Virus record (IMG/VR): IMGVR_UViG_3300034111_000497
Span: 1-54,162 of that record
Length of the DNA stretch: 54,162 nt
Source: a virus
Strand: one strand, 5' to 3'
Shown: one piece after another, positions 20,912-38,283 of the stretch
Numbering within the stretch: the stretch's first letter is position 1
Layout: each line of letters begins with the position of its first letter
Notes under the pieces: model-generated
What the model was told of the DNA's origin: nothing
Database searches by the model: none
The model's input: the letters and a program-made list of their open reading frames with translations, nothing else
Translations under genes and position numbers: made by a program

Positions 20912-20940
20912 TTGACTAAGCAATAATCATTTGCTATACT
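20912..20940 (+). promoter_or_regulatory. Sigma-70-type promoter for the Ntn hydrolase
   Basis: TTGACT at 20912-20917 and TATACT at 20935-20940 are separated by 17 bp, near-ideal spacing. A GAGGGGATT ribosome site precedes the ATG at 20970. Confidence 0.85.
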
Positions 20941-20969
20941 TAAAGGGTAAACTCTGAGGGGATTTCTGT

Positions 20970-21494
20970 ATGACTGTTCTTGCTGTAGTCCGTCATGAAA
21001 ATAAAATTTATATGGCTGGTGATCGTGGTGCCTCAGACGATAATACCATTCTTTCATTAACTTCTCCAAAGGTTTGGAAACTTGGTCCATATTTAATTGG
21101 GTATGCTGGAGCGCTAGACGGTGAACGTATTCGTTATAATTTTAATCCATATGTTCCAGATATAAAAGATTTAGATAAGTTTATGCAAACTAAATTTATT
21201 AAACAACTCAGAGATTTTTATAATAACTGGTGGGTAGATACTACCAAAGAAGGTGATTTAGGTCTTATTATTTGTGTTAAAGGTCAAATATATGAGCATA
21301 ATGCTATTGATATGTCTTTATCTAAATATAATTTAGACTATTTAGCAATGGGTTCAGGTGCAGAATACGCTTACGGATATTTAAATGCTACAGAAAAATC
21401 TAAGGATCCCCGTAAAAGAGTTGTTGGAGCGGTAGGTGCAGCAATAAAATTTAGTCCATCATGTATGGGTCCAGTTGACGTAGTAAACATTTAA
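20970..21494 (+). CDS. Proteasome-beta/HslV-like Ntn hydrolase
   Basis: A 174-residue protein whose second residue is Thr. After Met removal the numbering matches proteasome beta subunits: T1, D17 (MAGDRG) and K33 (SPKVWKLG), with the MGSGAEYAYGYL motif holding the serine near S129. This is the N-terminal-nucleophile catalytic set. Length is near that of HslV. It has its own strong promoter just after the endolysin. No ATPase partner is seen in the window. Substrate unknown. Confidence 0.85.
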   Translation: MTVLAVVRHENKIYMAGDRGASDDNTILSLTSPKVWKLGPYLIGYAGALDGERIRYNFNPYVPDIKDLDKFMQTKFIKQLRDFYNNWWVDTTKEGDLGLIICVKGQIYEHNAIDMSLSKYNLDYLAMGSGAEYAYGYLNATEKSKDPRKRVVGAVGAAIKFSPSCMGPVDVVNI

Positions 21495-21509: not shown

Positions 21510-21728
21510 ATGACAAACTTTGACGATATATTAAAAGATCTACAAGACGAGTCATCAAATCTTGATGAGTTTGAGATTTGGCTAAGTAATGGAATTGAGC
21601 GGGGATGGGTAACAGAACCGTTCTGCAATACTCATGAAGGAGATCCTTACATGAGTGATGAAGAAGCACAAGAGTGGGAAAAGGGCGGAGACCCTTGCCA
21701 GGTAGTAATTAAAATAAAAAACAACTAA
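21510..21728 (+). CDS. Small acidic conserved phage protein
   Basis: A 72-residue acidic protein (RGWVTEPFCNTHEGDPYMSD, then EEAQEWEKGGDPCQVV). The pattern is typical of small actinophage proteins of unknown function. It is transcribed without a leader. Confidence 0.75.
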   Translation: MTNFDDILKDLQDESSNLDEFEIWLSNGIERGWVTEPFCNTHEGDPYMSDEEAQEWEKGGDPCQVVIKIKNN

Positions 21729-21740
21729 TAAAGGGGTAAA

Positions 21741-22532
21741 ATGAAAAAAATAACAGTGGGGCTTGTAGCAATAATTGGTTTAGTTTTAGTTCAACCAACG
21801 TTTGCTTCAGAACAAAAATCTTTAGTAATTATTGATTCATATTTTGATTCAAGAGTGGTTGGTGGAAATGTATCTTGTGTAACACCTCAAGATACTGCTT
21901 GCTCTTATACAGCAAAACTTCCACTTCCTGCTTCATTATTAAGTCCAGTCAATCATGGAAATGCAATGGTAGAGGTTGCTAAAAAACAAAATTCAAATAT
22001 TAAAATTATTGGATTGTATAGTGCTGGACCAAACTCTCCTGTAAATGCTGGAAACTTTATTGATGCTTTACGTTGGGTAGACAAAAATTCTACAAAGGTT
22101 TCTGCAGTATCTTTTTCAGGATTTTTTAATGGTAACAGGGAGTGTTCTGTAGCGCCTACAAATACTGCTTCTTATGGTGGAGTCAGAGGTGCTGATGCAA
22201 CCATACGTACATTAATTGTAAGTTTAAAATCTAAAAATATTCCAGTATTTATTGCAACTGGTAATAAAATGGGAACAAAAATTGATTATCCAGCCTGTAT
22301 TGTTGACACGGTTTCAGTAAGCACTGGAGAAAAAAATAATTCTGGTCAAATTGTAAGCGTTAATGCTTTAGATGCAAATACAGACTATGTTGCATCTTCA
22401 AGTATATTTAATTATACTTCTTCTGTTTTTGGTTTAATACCACAAACAACATCTTCTGCTGCAGTTGCAGTTGCTACTACATGGACTACAAAAGGAACTT
22501 TAACTGATAAGGTTGTTCAAGTTCTTCCATAA
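21741..22532 (+). CDS. Secreted subtilisin-like protease
   Basis: A 263-residue protein with a signal peptide cleaved near residue 22. It has the S8 subtilase order: Asp32 (VIIDSYFDS), His72 (VNHGNAMVEVA), an oxyanion Asn in VFIATGNK and Ser238 in TTSSAAVAVA, which replaces the usual GTSMAAP. Two Cys pairs may form disulfides. A GGGGTAAA ribosome site precedes the ATG. A secreted protease is unusual in a phage; it may act on surface proteins. Confidence 0.82.
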   Translation: MKKITVGLVAIIGLVLVQPTFASEQKSLVIIDSYFDSRVVGGNVSCVTPQDTACSYTAKLPLPASLLSPVNHGNAMVEVAKKQNSNIKIIGLYSAGPNSPVNAGNFIDALRWVDKNSTKVSAVSFSGFFNGNRECSVAPTNTASYGGVRGADATIRTLIVSLKSKNIPVFIATGNKMGTKIDYPACIVDTVSVSTGEKNNSGQIVSVNALDANTDYVASSSIFNYTSSVFGLIPQTTSSAAVAVATTWTTKGTLTDKVVQVLP

Positions 22533-22539
22533 TAGTGTT

Positions 22540-22610
22540 GCGAATATTGCATAGTGGTAGTGCGTAACCTTGCCAAGGTTAATGTGCGAGTTCGATTCTC
22601 GCTATTCGCT
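22540..22610 (+). tRNA. tRNA-Gly (GCC)
   Basis: The acceptor stem GCGAATA pairs with TATTCGC. The anticodon arm is TAACC-TTGCCAA-GGTTA with anticodon GCC, and the T-arm contains GTTCGATTC. CCA is not encoded. Confidence 0.93.
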
Positions 22611-22614
22611 CTCA

Positions 22615-22689
22615 GCCCTCATCGTCTAGTGGTTAGGACATCACCCTTTCACGGTGGTAACAGGGGTTCAATTCCCCTTGGGGGTACCA
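22615..22689 (+). tRNA. tRNA-Glu (TTC)
   Basis: The acceptor stem GCCCTCA pairs with TGGGGGT. The anticodon loop CTTTCAC has anticodon TTC on a TCACC/GGTGG stem, and the T-loop is TTCAATT. The sequence ends ACCA, so CCA is encoded, unlike the tRNA-Gly 5 bp upstream. Confidence 0.93.
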
Positions 22690-26871: not shown

Positions 26872-27165
26872 ATGAAACAGCATTTATGGAAAGATAACGC
26901 AATTTGTCTAGGTCTTGATACAAATATTTACTTTGATAAATATGAAGATAATGAATCTGGCAGGGCAATTGTTGATTCAATGTGTCAGCAATGTCCAGTA
27001 GCAAAGACATGTTTTGCAGTAGGCATTTCAGGTAAAGAATGGGGTGTTTGGGGCGGAGTATATTTAGAAGGCGGAGAAGTATCTAAAGAGTTTAATAAAC
27101 ATAAAACTAAACAAGATTGGTCTAATACTTGGCAATCTTTAACTATGGAAAATAATAATATATGA
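26872..27165 (+). CDS. whiB: WhiB-like iron-sulfur transcription factor
   Basis: A 97-residue Wbl protein. Four Cys residues are in the family layout (one near residue 12, then CxxC and C at about 41, 44 and 50), binding a 4Fe-4S cluster, followed by GVWGGV, the G[VI]WGG turn that defines the family. Wbl proteins are confined to Actinobacteria and their phages, which gives the host phylum. It may redirect host sigma factor. Confidence 0.93.
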   Translation: MKQHLWKDNAICLGLDTNIYFDKYEDNESGRAIVDSMCQQCPVAKTCFAVGISGKEWGVWGGVYLEGGEVSKEFNKHKTKQDWSNTWQSLTMENNNI

Positions 27166-27971
27166 AAAAAAATTATTATTTTTTAGCAGGATTTCATCGT
27201 TCTGGAAATACATTGTTATCAAGTATTTTAAATCAAAATGAACAAATATATTGCAGTCCTCTTAGTCCAGTTTCAACAATGCTTAAAATTTTTGATCAAA
27301 ACATACCTCAAAATGAAGATACCGTAAGACTAGATAATCAAATTCCAGTAGAAAATGTTAGTAAAAATATAATTGAAAATTATTATTCACAAGTGACAAA
27401 GTCAATAATTATTGATAGAGAAAAATTGTGGGCAAATGCTGAAAATTTAAAAATAATAAAAAAATATATTAACCCTAATCCTAAAATAATATTTACAGTT
27501 AGGCCAATAATAGAAGTACTGTCATCCTTTATTAATATATTGCCAGAACATTCTTATTTAGACGTAGCAATGAAGCAAACTAATTGGTGGTATAAGGATT
27601 ATTTAAGTAAAAATGACAATAGGTGCGATTTTTTAATGAGAGCGGGAGGACCAATTGATAATGTTTTATTGTCTATTAATGAAATAATTAAACCTGAAAA
27701 TAAAAATATGTTTTGTATTGTTTGGTATGATGATCTTGTTAATAATCCACAAAAAACAATGAATGGAATATATAATTTTTTAGAATTACCAAATTATAAC
27801 CATAATTTTAATCAAATTATAAAGTTAGAAAAAGATAATGATGAGAAAATTGGACATCCTAAAAATATGCACGACATAAGATTAAAATTAAATAAAACAA
27901 GTAAAAATCCTAAAGAAATATTGTCAGAATATATAATTAATAAGTACTCAAATATGGGTTGGAGAATATGA
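27162..27971 (+). CDS. Sulfotransferase
   Basis: A 269-residue PAPS-dependent sulfotransferase. The 5'-phosphosulfate loop reads GFHRSGNTLLSSIL near residue 10 and the 3'-phosphate site NPKIIFTVRPIIEVLSSFI near residue 105. It overlaps the next gene, which begins with a kinase domain of the APS-kinase type, so donor synthesis and transfer may be coupled. The acceptor is unknown; glycans made by the neighbouring cassette are candidates. Confidence 0.82.
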   Translation: MKKNYYFLAGFHRSGNTLLSSILNQNEQIYCSPLSPVSTMLKIFDQNIPQNEDTVRLDNQIPVENVSKNIIENYYSQVTKSIIIDREKLWANAENLKIIKKYINPNPKIIFTVRPIIEVLSSFINILPEHSYLDVAMKQTNWWYKDYLSKNDNRCDFLMRAGGPIDNVLLSINEIIKPENKNMFCIVWYDDLVNNPQKTMNGIYNFLELPNYNHNFNQIIKLEKDNDEKIGHPKNMHDIRLKLNKTSKNPKEILSEYIINKYSNMGWRI

Positions 27972-28732
27972 TGATTATACAAATAATCGGACTGCCAGGT
28001 TCTGGAAAAACAGAATTAGCCAAGGCACTCAAAGAAAGAATTAACGCTATTCATCTTAATGCAGATGAGGTTCGTGCAACAGTAAATTCTGATCTTGGAT
28101 TTACCGCCGAAGATCGTATAGAGCAAGCACGACGCATGGGGGAGATGGCAAGACTTATTGCAAAACAAGGTGTTGCTCCAGTCATCGTAGATTTTGTATG
28201 CCCAACAGAATTAACTCGTAAAACATTTGGAAAGCCAGATATTTTTATTTTTATGGACACAATTGCTGAGGGCCGTTTTGAAGATACAAATAAAATGTTT
28301 GAGCGTCCAAAAGAAGCCGATTTTTATTTTACTAATCACGAACGAAATGCTGAAGAAAAAGCATCTAGTATTATTGAAAAGTTTGGCCTACATGACTGGT
28401 CTGCACCTACAACCCTTATGCTAGGTAGGTATCAGCCTTGGCACGAAGGCCACCACGCCCTTTACAAAGAAGCGGGGAAGAGAACAGACCAAGTGCTGCT
28501 GGGAGTTCGTAATACCTACAACACAAGCGAGAAAGATCCACTTAAGTTTGACCAGGTAAAAGAGTATATTGCCAAGGATGAATTTATGGATGGCGCATTA
28601 GTATTAAGACTACCCAACATTACCAACATTGTTTATGGTCGTGATGTAGGCTACAAGATTGAGCAGGTAGATTTAGGGGCAGACATTCACGCTATTTCTG
28701 CTACGCAAAAGCGTAAGGAGATGGGCATATGA
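27971..28732 (+). CDS. P-loop kinase fused to HxGH nucleotidylyltransferase
   Basis: A 253-residue fusion. Residues 1-135 form a kinase with Walker A GLPGSGKT (7-14) and ADEVR, as in adenylylsulfate (APS) kinase. Residues about 145-253 are a nucleotidylyltransferase (LGRYQPWHEGHHALYK with the HxGH motif and ISATQKRKE like ISSTxxR). Behind a sulfotransferase, PAPS supply is attractive, but a NadR-like NAD salvage enzyme is the main alternative. The ATG at 27971 fits the GGAG at 27961. Confidence 0.82.
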   Translation: MIIQIIGLPGSGKTELAKALKERINAIHLNADEVRATVNSDLGFTAEDRIEQARRMGEMARLIAKQGVAPVIVDFVCPTELTRKTFGKPDIFIFMDTIAEGRFEDTNKMFERPKEADFYFTNHERNAEEKASSIIEKFGLHDWSAPTTLMLGRYQPWHEGHHALYKEAGKRTDQVLLGVRNTYNTSEKDPLKFDQVKEYIAKDEFMDGALVLRLPNITNIVYGRDVGYKIEQVDLGADIHAISATQKRKEMGI

Positions 28733-31260: not shown

Positions 31261-32298
31261 TTATTCATTTATAACTTTTAACCATTTATCTTTTAATACT
31301 TCAACTGAAAAATTATTAAATCCAATTTCTATAGCCTTCTGTTTGCTATCATATATATTTATATTATTAAAATAATTATCAATAGATTTTGCTAATTCTT
31401 CTTGGTTAGCCTCATATACATCTACCATTGATTTAGTCTTAAACTCACCAATTTTATTTGAACTTACTAACCAGTTGTGTGGAAGTATTTGATTATTAGG
31501 TAATATGTCTGTCATAAAAACGGGTAGACCAGAAATTAAAGCCTCATTCATAGGTAAACAAAGACCAGCATAACGCCTAGGAAGAACCATAGCATCATAG
31601 TCATTATACAGATCTTCTCTATTTCTAATATTATCTTTGTTTATTTTTAAACGGCTATCTTTAGTTATAAAGTCTAGAGGGGTTTGTGTTGCTATTACAA
31701 GTTCATAATCTGCACTAGAATGTTTAAGCATTTCTACTACGGTGTTAGTTCCATTTCTATCTTTGGCTGCTTTTTTACCAGCAACATGAAGTATTCGTTT
31801 ATGGGTTTTTGATAGGTTATTTTCTCTTGCAGCATTAAACAATGATGTATCTGTTGGTGGTGGTATATGATATACCTTGCATTTTGATCCAAACTTTTCT
31901 TTAACAACATCTATATTCCAACTGCTTGGTGATAATAATACATCTGGTAACGGCCACTCTGGATGAACTAAATTTCCAAATAGTTCATAGTTATATTGCA
32001 ATATTGTTTTTATATTTCTTTTTCTTGCTATATCCACAAAGTCTAAATGGTAAAATGTTTCACAACTTATAACAACATCTATATTTTCTAAAAATGCTAA
32101 AATTTCTTTTGTCCTAGGCATACCCTTAATTGTTTTTATTACATCATATTGTTTATACCAGTCTGGATGTTGCCTGTTATTATTAAAAGATGTAGAGTCA
32201 ACTAAAAGAATCTTGTCTGGATTTAACATTTTTACAAGTTCCTTGGTTTGATTACCAAGTCCAGTATTATCAGATCTTGCAATAACTCCTAATCTCAT
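31261..32298 (-). CDS. Glycosyltransferase, GT4-like
   Basis: A 345-residue GT-B enzyme. The N-terminal half starts LGVIARSDNTGLGNQTKELV, and the C-terminal donor site includes DAMVLPRRYAGLCLPMNEAL, the E-x7-E-like region of GT4. It is the last gene of a five-gene leftward cassette and overlaps its neighbour by 4 bp. Donor sugar and acceptor are unknown. Confidence 0.82.
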   Translation of the reverse strand: MRLGVIARSDNTGLGNQTKELVKMLNPDKILLVDSTSFNNNRQHPDWYKQYDVIKTIKGMPRTKEILAFLENIDVVISCETFYHLDFVDIARKRNIKTILQYNYELFGNLVHPEWPLPDVLLSPSSWNIDVVKEKFGSKCKVYHIPPPTDTSLFNAARENNLSKTHKRILHVAGKKAAKDRNGTNTVVEMLKHSSADYELVIATQTPLDFITKDSRLKINKDNIRNREDLYNDYDAMVLPRRYAGLCLPMNEALISGLPVFMTDILPNNQILPHNWLVSSNKIGEFKTKSMVDVYEANQEELAKSIDNYFNNINIYDSKQKAIEIGFNNFSVEVLKDKWLKVINE

Positions 32299-33056
32299 TC
32301 TTTATATCCCCAAACATCATCATCCTTTGTAAATTTTTTAGTACCATCACGACCATCTAAATGATAAGATCTTTTAATGTTTCCTTCTGGATGATAAATC
32401 CAAAGTTTGTGTTGGTCCCAACCCTCTTGATCAAAACTATCATATGGTAAAACATCATCTTGAATTTTACCATGAAACCTATCTTCAATAAAAGTTTGTT
32501 CATTAGAAAATGGTAAAACAATATCTCTATAATATTTAACTGTACTCAAATGTGGTCTTTGACTCCATTGTGCAGTTTTCATAAAACCATTTTCTATTCC
32601 AAACATTAAATGTTGGTGTGGCTCTGGAATCTCTGCTTCAAAATGAAAACGTATTGTATTAGCCTTGTTGTATTCTAACATATCTAAACACTTTTGCCAA
32701 TCAATCTCGTAATCTACAGTTAATGGTGCATCTCCTTCAACATAAAGTAAAACAGAGGTGTCTATAAGGTTAATTGTTTCTTTCATCATTGTAGTTTGAT
32801 GACTATGTTTATCAAAAATTATTGGTAAAACATTTTTCCATTTATGCATAGACTTCCACAAAACCCTGTTTTTATATTCATCATAGTCTGATTTACGATT
32901 TATTCTTTCTTCACGCAAGCCATCTATCTGTAAAATAATTTCATTATTTGGAAAGTGGTAGCGTATAGATTTGATTGTTTCATCAATTATTGATGTGCTT
33001 GGATGACTTGGAAGAATCGAAGTTGGAATTATAATTGTTACATCTCTACTATGCAT
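32295..33056 (-). CDS. GT-A-type glycosyltransferase
   Basis: A 253-residue protein starting VTIIIPTS, with SIRYHFPNNEIILQIDG and a DxD-like VEGDAPL, as in GT2-related enzymes. The C terminus is rich in His and Trp. A GAGG precedes the ATG. It overlaps genes on both sides. Confidence 0.75.
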   Translation of the reverse strand: MHSRDVTIIIPTSILPSHPSTSIIDETIKSIRYHFPNNEIILQIDGLREERINRKSDYDEYKNRVLWKSMHKWKNVLPIIFDKHSHQTTMMKETINLIDTSVLLYVEGDAPLTVDYEIDWQKCLDMLEYNKANTIRFHFEAEIPEPHQHLMFGIENGFMKTAQWSQRPHLSTVKYYRDIVLPFSNEQTFIEDRFHGKIQDDVLPYDSFDQEGWDQHKLWIYHPEGNIKRSYHLDGRDGTKKFTKDDDVWGYKE

Positions 33057-33897
33057 TGACTTGCCTCATAATCTTAATTCCTAAATCTCTTTTATATTTA
33101 ATCCACCAACAAACAACCTTATGCATATTATTAGGATAGTTGTCTAATATTTGTGGGATTAAGTTTTTTAATAAAAACCAATTGTCTACCGTTTTTATTG
33201 GAGTTATATCATCATAAATAAAATCATAGTATTTTATAGAATTACCTTTTGGATCAAGGGAATCCGCTACTGGAAAGCATAACATTTCTATTGCTTCATA
33301 AAATCTAAAAGAATCTATTACAACCGCACCAGATGGTGCTGGAGCAATCTTTGTACTGGCTAGGTTACTATAGTAGTCTTTTGGATGATCACCTTGTGCA
33401 AACCCTTCTGTTGGCTTAAACAGGGCATTGGGTATTGTTTGCATAGCCTTAGCCAATTCCTTTCTTCTTGAATGCGTAATTTGTCCACCAAAATATACAT
33501 TATATTTTTTAGGTCCGTACTCTGGTAAAAATTTTTTAAAATGTTGTGGAACTCCAAGTGGCAATTTGTTATAATTTTGATGTTGTTTGTGTGGAGTCTG
33601 AAGCCATATCTCTATGTTAGGATGATTAATTTTATCTAATTTAAATCTAACTTCTTCATCCCCTGTAAAAAATAAAACTACTCTTTTTATTTTTTGTAAT
33701 TCTTTATTAATGTGTTCTTCATAACCAAGATTTTGAGGTCCAGGAATTACGACAAATGCTCTATCAGTATTAGGTAATGAGTTTACTTTTATTTGTTCAA
33801 TTTCGTATTTATCAAATATTTCTTTTAATAAGCCGTAGTCCCATTTATCCGCAGCACAATCTTCTTCATTAAAAGAATACAAGTATGCCTTTATCAT
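33049..33897 (-). CDS. Exostosin-like (GT47) glycosyltransferase
   Basis: A 282-residue protein with the exostosin order: LPLGVPQHF, GGQITHSRRKEL, then KIAPAPSGAVVIDSFRFYEA and a following hydrophobic strand. Only the catalytic half of the family is present. It probably adds a sugar to the same glycan as its neighbours. Confidence 0.75.
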   Translation of the reverse strand: MIKAYLYSFNEEDCAADKWDYGLLKEIFDKYEIEQIKVNSLPNTDRAFVVIPGPQNLGYEEHINKELQKIKRVVLFFTGDEEVRFKLDKINHPNIEIWLQTPHKQHQNYNKLPLGVPQHFKKFLPEYGPKKYNVYFGGQITHSRRKELAKAMQTIPNALFKPTEGFAQGDHPKDYYSNLASTKIAPAPSGAVVIDSFRFYEAIEMLCFPVADSLDPKGNSIKYYDFIYDDITPIKTVDNWFLLKNLIPQILDNYPNNMHKVVCWWIKYKRDLGIKIMRQVNA

Positions 33898-33900
33898 TTA

Positions 33901-34653
33901 TTACTTTTTCTCAAAATACCAATGTGCTTCATGATTTTTTGCTAAAAACTCTCCAACATAACCAAAAGATTGTAAATATGAAATAGTATCTTCTGGAGTT
34001 GTGTCATAGTCACGAATACCTAAATCATCATGAATTGATACAAATATTTTTAAATTATTATCTCGTAATGTTTTTTCTGCACCTTTGAATACAAGAAGTT
34101 CTGCACCCTCTACATCAATATTTAAGACATTTGGAATAATGCCAACTTCAGAAACATAGTCATCTACTTTAATCATTGGTATGCTTTCTGTGTTGTCATG
34201 AATATATACATATTTATTTCTATCAATAATCGGTCCAAGATGTTTTTCTCCCCAAGCATTTAAATTACTACCTTTGCGAGTGTCTGTTGTTTCATCACTC
34301 ATTAGTCCAGCATAACAACCTAAAGGATCTACTGAATAATTTTTATACCATAGGGCATGAATGTTTGCCCAAAACTCAGGAGTTGGCTCAATTAGTACCA
34401 TGTTTTCTGGTCCAACAATGTCAGCATAAACTAAGTTGCACCATCCAGCCTCTGTTCCAATATCAAAAAATACATCACCCTTTTTAAGGTGTTGCTGCAT
34501 GCTATAAATTCTTTCACTTTCCCAATAATCCCAAACATCCCAATTAGCCAATGGCTCATTTAGTTTTAGTCTGTAATCATAGTTTCTTGTTTGTCCTTGA
34601 CGCAAATATGGTACTGTCTTCCATTTAATATCTGATCTTTCTATAAAATTCAT
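33901..34653 (-). CDS. FkbM-family methyltransferase
   Basis: A 250-residue SAM-dependent O-methyltransferase: KKGDVFFDIGTEAGWCNLVY (SAM motif I), MVLIEPTPEFW and the FkbM signature VLNIDVEGAELLVFKGAEKT. The ATG at 34653 has AAAGGAG and overlaps the upstream stop through ATGA; an earlier in-frame start would add 10 residues. It would methylate a sugar in the phage-made glycan. Confidence 0.88.
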   Translation of the reverse strand: MNFIERSDIKWKTVPYLRQGQTRNYDYRLKLNEPLANWDVWDYWESERIYSMQQHLKKGDVFFDIGTEAGWCNLVYADIVGPENMVLIEPTPEFWANIHALWYKNYSVDPLGCYAGLMSDETTDTRKGSNLNAWGEKHLGPIIDRNKYVYIHDNTESIPMIKVDDYVSEVGIIPNVLNIDVEGAELLVFKGAEKTLRDNNLKIFVSIHDDLGIRDYDTTPEDTISYLQSFGYVGEFLAKNHEAHWYFEKK

Positions 34654-35615
34654 AGACCTAACTCCTTTATGATAGTTGCCCAACGATGGACATATGTGTG
34701 TTCTTTTTTAGTTCGTTCATGACCAGCAAACCTTATCTCTTCTCTAGTTAATCCATCTAAGATGTAGTAATCTATTTTTTGTTTAAGGTCTTCAAGATTA
34801 CCATGTTCATAAAATATAATTTCTTTACCATCTTCAAAATATTCATCAAGACCTTTAATGCGGGGATAAATAGTAAAACCACCACGACCAGTGCTTTCAA
34901 ACAATCTATCACTTGTGTAGTATGGATAGTTAAAATTTATGTTAAGACTATCACCTATTGCTACCTTGCTTTTTGCATAAATACGATTAAGAGCATCTCC
35001 ACGAACTGTGCCAGTGTCTCCATCGCCACCAACATGTAAAAATCTTTTACCGTATGTTTTTCGTAAAAAATCTATTAATTGTGGACGATATTTATGTTCA
35101 GGATGATATCCTCTGCTACCAACAAAAATTATGTCATGTTCAAAGTTATGTGGATCGTAATCTTGATGTACATAACACTCTTTATCATATACGCCAGCAG
35201 GCAAGAAATGTCCTTTAACCTGTGTGTTTTCATTAAACCAATCACACATTAACTTATCTGTAGCAAAAAAATGACCTATGCTTGTATAAAAATCATCATT
35301 CTTTAAATCTTTTTCACGCTCAATGCCAAACCACAAATCCAAGTGATAAGTCATAGTTGGTATGCCAGCAGCCTTTAATTGTTTTAATACATCTGTCATA
35401 GATCTAGATCCTGGAGTTTGCCATCTATGTGTGTGTACCCAAATGAATAGATTAGATTTTAGTGCTGCATTTAATATCTCAGAACTACCCGCTTTTTTTT
35501 CTTGCAATTTTTGCACGGTATGTCCAAGAGACTCTAAAGAATTAGCATGATGATTCTCACTACTATAAGGCACTTCAAAGTTACCAAGAAATACTATATT
35601 AGCCAAGGAGTCCAC
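34650..35615 (-). CDS. CgeB-like glycosyltransferase
   Basis: A 321-residue GT-B protein of the CgeB/GT1 type: TYHLDLWFGIEREKDL, FLPAGVYDKECY, DIIFVGSRGYHPEHKYRP and RLFESTGRGGFTIYPRIKGL. It heads the leftward cassette. The annotated start is GTG; a TTG three codons later has a better AGGTGG site. Confidence 0.8.
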   Translation of the reverse strand: MDSLANIVFLGNFEVPYSSENHHANSLESLGHTVQKLQEKKAGSSEILNAALKSNLFIWVHTHRWQTPGSRSMTDVLKQLKAAGIPTMTYHLDLWFGIEREKDLKNDDFYTSIGHFFATDKLMCDWFNENTQVKGHFLPAGVYDKECYVHQDYDPHNFEHDIIFVGSRGYHPEHKYRPQLIDFLRKTYGKRFLHVGGDGDTGTVRGDALNRIYAKSKVAIGDSLNINFNYPYYTSDRLFESTGRGGFTIYPRIKGLDEYFEDGKEIIFYEHGNLEDLKQKIDYYILDGLTREEIRFAGHERTKKEHTYVHRWATIIKELGL

Positions 35616-35630
35616 CTATTCTGTCTTTAT

Positions 35631-35660
35631 ATTAGTATACCAGATTCTGATATACTTATA
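35631..35660. promoter_or_regulatory. Divergent extended -10 promoter pair
   Basis: On the minus strand TGGTATACT (-10 at 35634-35639) drives the glycan cassette. On the plus strand TGATATACT (-10 at 35651-35656, with TATAAT at 35657-35662 as an alternative) drives the Stealth-like gene. The two lie back to back. Confidence 0.65.
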
Positions 35661-35677
35661 ATAAAGCGGGGTATTTA

Positions 35678-36367
35678 ATGGATTTTGTTTACATTTGTCG
35701 TGACGGAGATAATGAAGAGTTAAGGTACTCTATTAGATCTGTCATAAATAGTTTTCCAGATGCAAAGGTTTGGCTGGTAGGTGGAAAGCCAAAATGGTAT
35801 TCTGGATACCATATACCAGTAGAACAAAATCATAATAAATATACTAATGCTTTAAATAATTTACAGGCTCTGTGTAACTCTGACGAAATACCAAACGACT
35901 TTATATTAATGAATGATGATTTTTTTATAATTAAAAAAATAGATAAGATTGAGCATTTTCATGGAGGTTTATTGTTAGATAAGATAGATAGATATGTTAA
36001 GATAACTGGATCATCACTATACATTAAAAAATTAATATTAACAAACTCTAGACTAATTCAAAACGGAATAGAACTACCATATGACTATGAGTTGCATACC
36101 CCAATGCCCATGGAAAAAGATAAACTTCGTTTAATACTTAAAAAATATCCAAGTTGTTTATGGAGATCTATTTATGGAAATATATATAGTGTTGGTGGTA
36201 CAAAAACAAATGACGTAAAGGTTTATACAAATCGAAGACATTTGGCTAGATCTAATGAAATCACAGAAAAATCTATATACCTATCAACGGAAGATCAAGC
36301 CTTTAAAGGTATACTTGATAAAGTTTTAAGTAATATGTTTCAAAATAAAACTATCTATGAAAATTAA
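35678..36367 (+). CDS. Stealth-like/GT-A sugar-phosphate transferase
   Basis: A 229-residue protein: DFVYICRDGDNEELRYSIRS, then IPNDFILMNDDFFIIKKID. This matches Stealth conserved regions 1 and 2, with the NDD motif as metal or catalytic site. It resembles capsule sugar-phosphate transferases but is shorter. It is divergent from the other glycan genes. Confidence 0.7.
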   Translation: MDFVYICRDGDNEELRYSIRSVINSFPDAKVWLVGGKPKWYSGYHIPVEQNHNKYTNALNNLQALCNSDEIPNDFILMNDDFFIIKKIDKIEHFHGGLLLDKIDRYVKITGSSLYIKKLILTNSRLIQNGIELPYDYELHTPMPMEKDKLRLILKKYPSCLWRSIYGNIYSVGGTKTNDVKVYTNRRHLARSNEITEKSIYLSTEDQAFKGILDKVLSNMFQNKTIYEN

Positions 36368-36370
36368 TAC

Positions 36371-37153
36371 TTATTCCCAATCGGCTATTTGATTATATGT
36401 AACAGAATATTCTCCAGAGTATATTTCTGCATATGAGATCATATCTTTGTTATATCGTGTCACAGTATTCCTATCTACTAAACCTGTTTTATATTTTTTA
36501 CCATGCATAATTGGCAAATGTTTTATTTTTTCTGACTCTAATGAATTATTTAATGCTTGTATATACCTAGTTTTGCCAAATTGTTTTGAAAGAAATGATT
36601 GTTTTGGATATGTTTTTTCTATCCATAGTCTTTCGTTGTGATCAGAAGGCTTTGGATTTAACACTCTTTCTACTTCATTGTGATATATTCTTGTAGACCA
36701 ACTCTTCATATTTCTTTCATAATTTATTAAATTCTTGTATGTGGAATCTGCGTAAGCCATAAAATTTTTATCAAGATCAGATGTAGATACACCAGTCGCA
36801 AATGTTATTAAAAAACAAGTAGCATAAGGAAATTTATCTGTATATTTTGTTACTTCAAAATGTAAATTTGGATTAAAAGAATTAATAGAAATGTTGTCAG
36901 AAAGCAATCGCATATGATTGCCAATAGAAACAAACTCTGGCGTATTCATATCACAATCTACAAAAAGACAGTCTTCTGGATTAATTCCATTAGCAATAGT
37001 TAAAATGTTTTTATCGTATGCCCCAACAACAACTGATCCATTGTATCGATTGATTAACTTAGCGGTCATAAATCCATCGATGTCAGGAGAAATAATTAAT
37101 TTTTTAGAATACTCTAATGTATCTAATATGCTGGTTTTTAAATTAAATTCCAT
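36371..37153 (-). CDS. Degenerate DHH-phosphoesterase-like protein
   Basis: A 260-residue protein. The start LIISPDIDGFMTAKLI and the following LFVDCDMNTPEF and SIGNHM resemble DHH motifs I, II and III, but the DHH triad reads GNH. It may be a divergent RecJ/NrnA-like phosphoesterase or an inactive relative. It overlaps the upstream gene by 11 bp. Confidence 0.45.
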   Translation of the reverse strand: MEFNLKTSILDTLEYSKKLIISPDIDGFMTAKLINRYNGSVVVGAYDKNILTIANGINPEDCLFVDCDMNTPEFVSIGNHMRLLSDNISINSFNPNLHFEVTKYTDKFPYATCFLITFATGVSTSDLDKNFMAYADSTYKNLINYERNMKSWSTRIYHNEVERVLNPKPSDHNERLWIEKTYPKQSFLSKQFGKTRYIQALNNSLESEKIKHLPIMHGKKYKTGLVDRNTVTRYNKDMISYAEIYSGEYSVTYNQIADWE

Positions 37154-38254: not shown

Positions 38255-38283
38255 AGTATAGCAAAAATCTTGATAAAAGTCAA
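38255..38283 (-). promoter_or_regulatory. Strong leaderless promoter
   Basis: On the minus strand, TTGACT, 17 bp, TATACT, then six bases to the ATG at 38248. Confidence 0.9.

Follow-up and report, generated by a model that had tools for sequence, protein, structure and literature searches.

How might a phage use a proteasome-like protein that it encodes without a recognizable unfoldase? The question is posed by a single-copy gene at positions 20970..21494 (+ strand) of a viral sequence of 54,162 nucleotides from IMG/VR, the whole of which is called the window here. Its product of 174 amino acids is assigned to the proteasome-like (HslV/BPH-type) threonine peptidases by phrog_1040, an AlphaFold2 model and Foldseek. 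We consider it likely that this is a homo-oligomeric enzyme of an actinophage, an active threonine peptidase like HslV and BPH that works without an unfoldase of its own. Phage homologs of proteasomes are widespread, and the papers we found describe no substrate, phenotype or role for them. A 174-residue protein with no partner gene offers an easy test of a proteasome-like protease run by a phage.

The window encodes DnaB, DNA polymerase III alpha, RecA and terminase. The DNA polymerase is nearest (53-55%) to those of BillNye-type Streptomyces phages, and a WhiB gene lies at 26887-27060 of the window, with 11 of 12 relatives also having one; among 14 control genomes, only Corynebacterium was positive for WhiB. 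WhiB and the Streptomyces-phage-like polymerase, both recognized from sequence, make actinobacteria very probably the hosts. Relatives of the peptidase occur in at least 545 stretches of IMG/VR, in which the lineage is abundant, and their contigs are, to go by the names, presumably of freshwater origin. The window also carries a sulfotransferase gene, an APS-kinase-like gene and several glycosyltransferase/FkbM genes (27162-28732 and 31261-37153); all of these possibly serve glycan or DNA decoration.

An earlier note, made from the letters of this DNA, had described the product as a proteasome-beta-like hydrolase. It is indeed a hydrolase of the proteasome-type Ntn class, but lies nearer to HslV and BPH (group I) than to 20S beta proper. 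By sequence it is a member of a phage group already catalogued (phrog_1040; PMC8665760): the PHROGs family phrog_1040, annotated as 'peptidase HslV family', matches residues 1-174 with an E value of 6.7e-18. Pfam PF00227 (Proteasome) remains sub-threshold (20.2 bits vs a cut-off of 22.4), and the scores fall short of the cut-offs of the curated HslV model TIGR03692 (21.1 vs 157.75 bits) and of the 20S beta models TIGR03690 (13.4 vs 191.9 bits) and TIGR03634 (20.5 vs 224 bits). A profile built from 36 relatives has solved HslV (1.3e-10) and BPH (9e-10) as top matches over nearly the full length, and its alignment reveals a C-terminal P-[IV]-D-V motif common to the phage family and BPH. PADLOC gives no defence-system match.

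The AlphaFold2 monomer model is a confident prediction of an Ntn-hydrolase fold (pLDDT 91.9, pTM 0.88), with four helices (51-57, 68-86, 131-140, and 147-161) and a final strand at 169-173. When the model is compared with the PDB by Foldseek, BPH and HslV are the best matches (E about 1e-11, TM 0.7-0.8), with 20S beta behind; predicted phage proteins match it better than any PDB entry (E to 3e-17, TM to 0.89). The modelled fold is compact and proteasome-like and has no S12/H5 extension, as is characteristic of group I (HslV/BPH type). The N-terminal Thr, Asp17 and Lys33 are likewise those of group I of the proteasome-like (T1) Ntn hydrolases. Identity with PPH, a homolog described by Fuchs et al. 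(2021), was excluded on length and on the presence of helix H2, PPH having about 140 residues and no H2.

The catalytic residues are those expected of an active enzyme. The open reading frame begins with Met-Thr and, with the Met discounted, T1, D17, and K33 fall in register with the catalytic triad of 20S beta, HslV and BPH, as the earlier note had proposed; alignment with the known families is far above chance. The codon of Thr1, the predicted nucleophile once the Met is gone (20973..20975, + strand), specifies Thr in 84/84 distinct proteins of the clade, and that of Lys33 (21069..21071, + strand) specifies Lys in all 84. Position 17 (21021..21023, + strand) is Asp in 76 of the 84 and Glu in eight. 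The triad is followed by G46 and, at residues 127-129 in the same numbering, by the expected GSG motif (21351..21359, + strand), whose S128 is equivalent to Ser129 of the proteasome and is Ser in 82/84 and Thr in 2/84 clade proteins. The median dN/dS of the gene against the window copy is 0.057, indicating purifying selection. Peptidase activity, predicted from the modelled fold and these conserved residues, is very probable.

One element of the active site has changed. The position equivalent to Asp166, as assigned by family-profile alignment to BPH rather than by a measured superposition, is Ser (21453..21455, + strand; S 77/84, N 7/84), whereas BPH has Asp at the aligned place. Either Asp or Glu at position 17 is normal in active proteasome subunits, and in 20S beta, Asp166 and Ser129 form a second relay that tunes the Thr1 amine (Huber et al., PMC4792962). 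The clade thus keeps the first triad and alters the second relay, and with Asp166 replaced by Ser or Asn its activity could be low or altered.

How the protein relates to known systems can be judged from structure and phylogeny. BPH of Cupriavidus and Thiobacillus, a 14-subunit double ring that binds epoxomicin and for which no unfoldase is known (PMC5777263), resembles it in fold (TM 0.73-0.79), triad, C-terminal motif and want of an unfoldase. The two differ in that identity by structural alignment is 16-20%, the window peptidase is phage-borne, and its Lys is K33, in the 20S register, rather than K37. HslV is similar in fold (TM about 0.7), size and triad register, but is about 20% identical, and no HslU was found for the window peptidase. 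Despite the profile match and the shared motif with BPH, the tree groups the peptidase with phage homologs. In that tree, whose root is arbitrary and whose HslV and BPH branches are long, the window clade pairs with a sister type, L089 (support 100/99), and the two nest among phage and plasmid homologs in a supported group (99/97) that is separate from HslV and BPH. Plasmid homologs are only 24-28% identical, one from Streptomyces being at 27.6% (E 8e-8), and two pattern scans of GTDB genome contigs found no cellular relatives.

Among phages, phrog_1040 homologs are known from T5-like, Vibrio, Psychrobacter, Tenacibaculum, and Moorella phages. They share the length class and T1/D17/K33/GSG with the window peptidase, and in most regions examined are likewise encoded by a single gene with no unfoldase found beside it. 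The window peptidase differs in being at most about 32% identical to those of isolated phages and in forming, with the L089 type, a separate clade that has full support. Aeromonas phage 4L372D (L219, 2459-3912) has a tandem pair of 'peptidase HslV family' genes, of which the second is extended at the C-terminal end; the pair possibly encodes a two-subunit phage protease. Fuchs, Alva and Lupas (2021, PMC8665760) described three group I proteasome homologs borne by phages, AAH, CPH, and PPH, and found no co-occurring AAA+ partner for them. The window peptidase is like AAH in belonging to group I and in the occurrence of AAH in phages and actinobacteria. These authors found no Actinobacteria-specific phage with AAH (PMC8665760), and the peptidase now places a group I homolog in phages that very probably infect actinobacteria. 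Further homologs are on record in the actinophages Arthrobacter Hum25 and Microbacterium Pumpernickel, and the HslV-like protein of Actinomycetia phage DSL-LC01 also keeps the triad, but is below 30% identical, belongs to a different clade, and is encoded next to WhiB. What the window represents is a new, abundant actinophage clade within a known kind of enzyme.

The gene appears to have its own means of expression. A sigma-70-type promoter, TTGACT-N17-TATACT with a TG before the -10 box, lies at 20912..20940 (+ strand) and agrees with the consensus at 10/12 positions. The earlier note's strong promoter is real as a pattern and is conserved: it is kept in 67/76 relatives, in 22 distinct versions with drifting spacers. 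A Shine-Dalgarno-like GAGGGG follows (20956..20961, + strand), with the ATG 8 bases on, and relatives keep the G-rich run. Ten sites of the form TTGAC-N16/18-TATA-like are found in the window and resemble a shared phage promoter set; they lie at 793, 20912, 21475, 25933, and 26089 on the + strand and at 38283, 39727, 42283, 42598, and 48143 on the - strand.

The absence of an ATPase or alpha-like partner, remarked on from the window, holds in the relatives searched, which reach 110-114 kb and may all be incomplete, so that an unfoldase could lie outside them. In 13 relatives of up to 110 kb no AAA_2 domain of an HslU-type unfoldase was found, and no AAA match exceeded the cut-off in the window or in those relatives; the sole AAA signal in the window is the P-loop of the APS-kinase-like gene at 27983. 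ClpP, searched for as a partner, is absent, and nine contigs contain no Pup. The same number of contigs have one peptidase homolog each (9/9, three of them chosen by their Hsp20 gene and not by the peptidase) and hence no second subunit or alpha-like partner. The gene itself is present in every long contig of this lineage that was checked. Hsp20, encoded near the peptidase in 72/90 relatives, was rejected as an operon partner because a variable region separates the two and because it is absent from other phages with peptidase homologs. A small open reading frame at 21510-21728 was also rejected, its distant homolog being about 4 kb away in L089.

These properties suggest how the peptidase may work. 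Expressed from its own conserved promoter, it would have Thr1 exposed by Met aminopeptidase; it has no propeptide. Asp17 would orient Lys33, which would activate the Thr1 hydroxyl for the cutting of peptide bonds. By analogy with BPH, the subunits would assemble into a homo-oligomeric ring that encloses the active sites. With neither an alpha-like partner nor a phage-encoded unfoldase found, the ring may degrade unfolded or short substrates in the infected cell, or borrow an unfoldase of the host. More tentatively, the clade may represent a subfamily, large and specific to actinophages, of proteasome homologs that are self-sufficient, work without an unfoldase and have an altered relay to the Thr1 amine (Asp166 to Ser/Asn). 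The gene would then belong to the core of an aquatic actinophage lineage, and its product would act during infection on proteins of the host or of the phage.

A different use of the same fold is conceivable. The proteasome-like family includes the monomeric connectase (PMC8665760), and a monomer or small oligomer carrying out a specific, non-degradative reaction, for instance that of an amidase or of a protein ligase resembling connectase, would accord with the altered Asp166 position and with the failure to find an unfoldase or partner. We regard this as unlikely, as the nearest folds and profiles are those of the ring-forming HslV and BPH, and the model has no two-helix S3/S4 insertion, the hallmark of connectase (PMC8665760). 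Even less probable is a protein that enters the proteasome ring of the host as a subunit, or poisons it, and so redirects host proteolysis: sequence and fold are nearer to HslV and BPH than to bacterial 20S beta, and strong selection maintains the catalytic residues. The attraction of such a role is that many actinobacteria carry a 20S proteasome.

The position of the gene raises the further prospect of a protease that times lysis together with the adjoining CHAP endolysin, a role the earlier note had left open. In the window and in 76/94 relatives with enough upstream sequence, the endolysin gene immediately precedes the peptidase gene, but this adjacency is limited to one sub-lineage. In 11 of the remaining 18/94 relatives the endolysin is found on the downstream side, and the peptidase has the same neighbors. 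Since sister phages carry the endolysin elsewhere while the peptidase stays in place, the link to lysis is weak. Homologs in other phages adjoin genes for ribonucleotide reductase, thymidylate synthase, PhoH or DNA ligase, and this proximity to nucleotide and DNA metabolism argues against a dedicated lysis role. The peptidase also has its own promoter and, in its sequence, no apparent signal peptide. A lysis role is thus unsupported, and we think it very improbable beside the unfoldase-free peptidase preferred here.

The region downstream is more changeable. At 21741-22532 (+ strand) is a subtilase-like gene whose product has an apparent signal peptide; Pfam S8 is not matched by the window copy, but homologs that occupy the same position hit Peptidase_S8 (E to 3.5e-17). 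The gene is accessory and highly divergent, with 22-86% identity among relatives, near-identical copies aside, and this suggests that these phages have a hot spot for exported subtilases. Between it and Hsp20, in a region that varies among relatives, are tRNA-Gly and tRNA-Glu (22540-22689).
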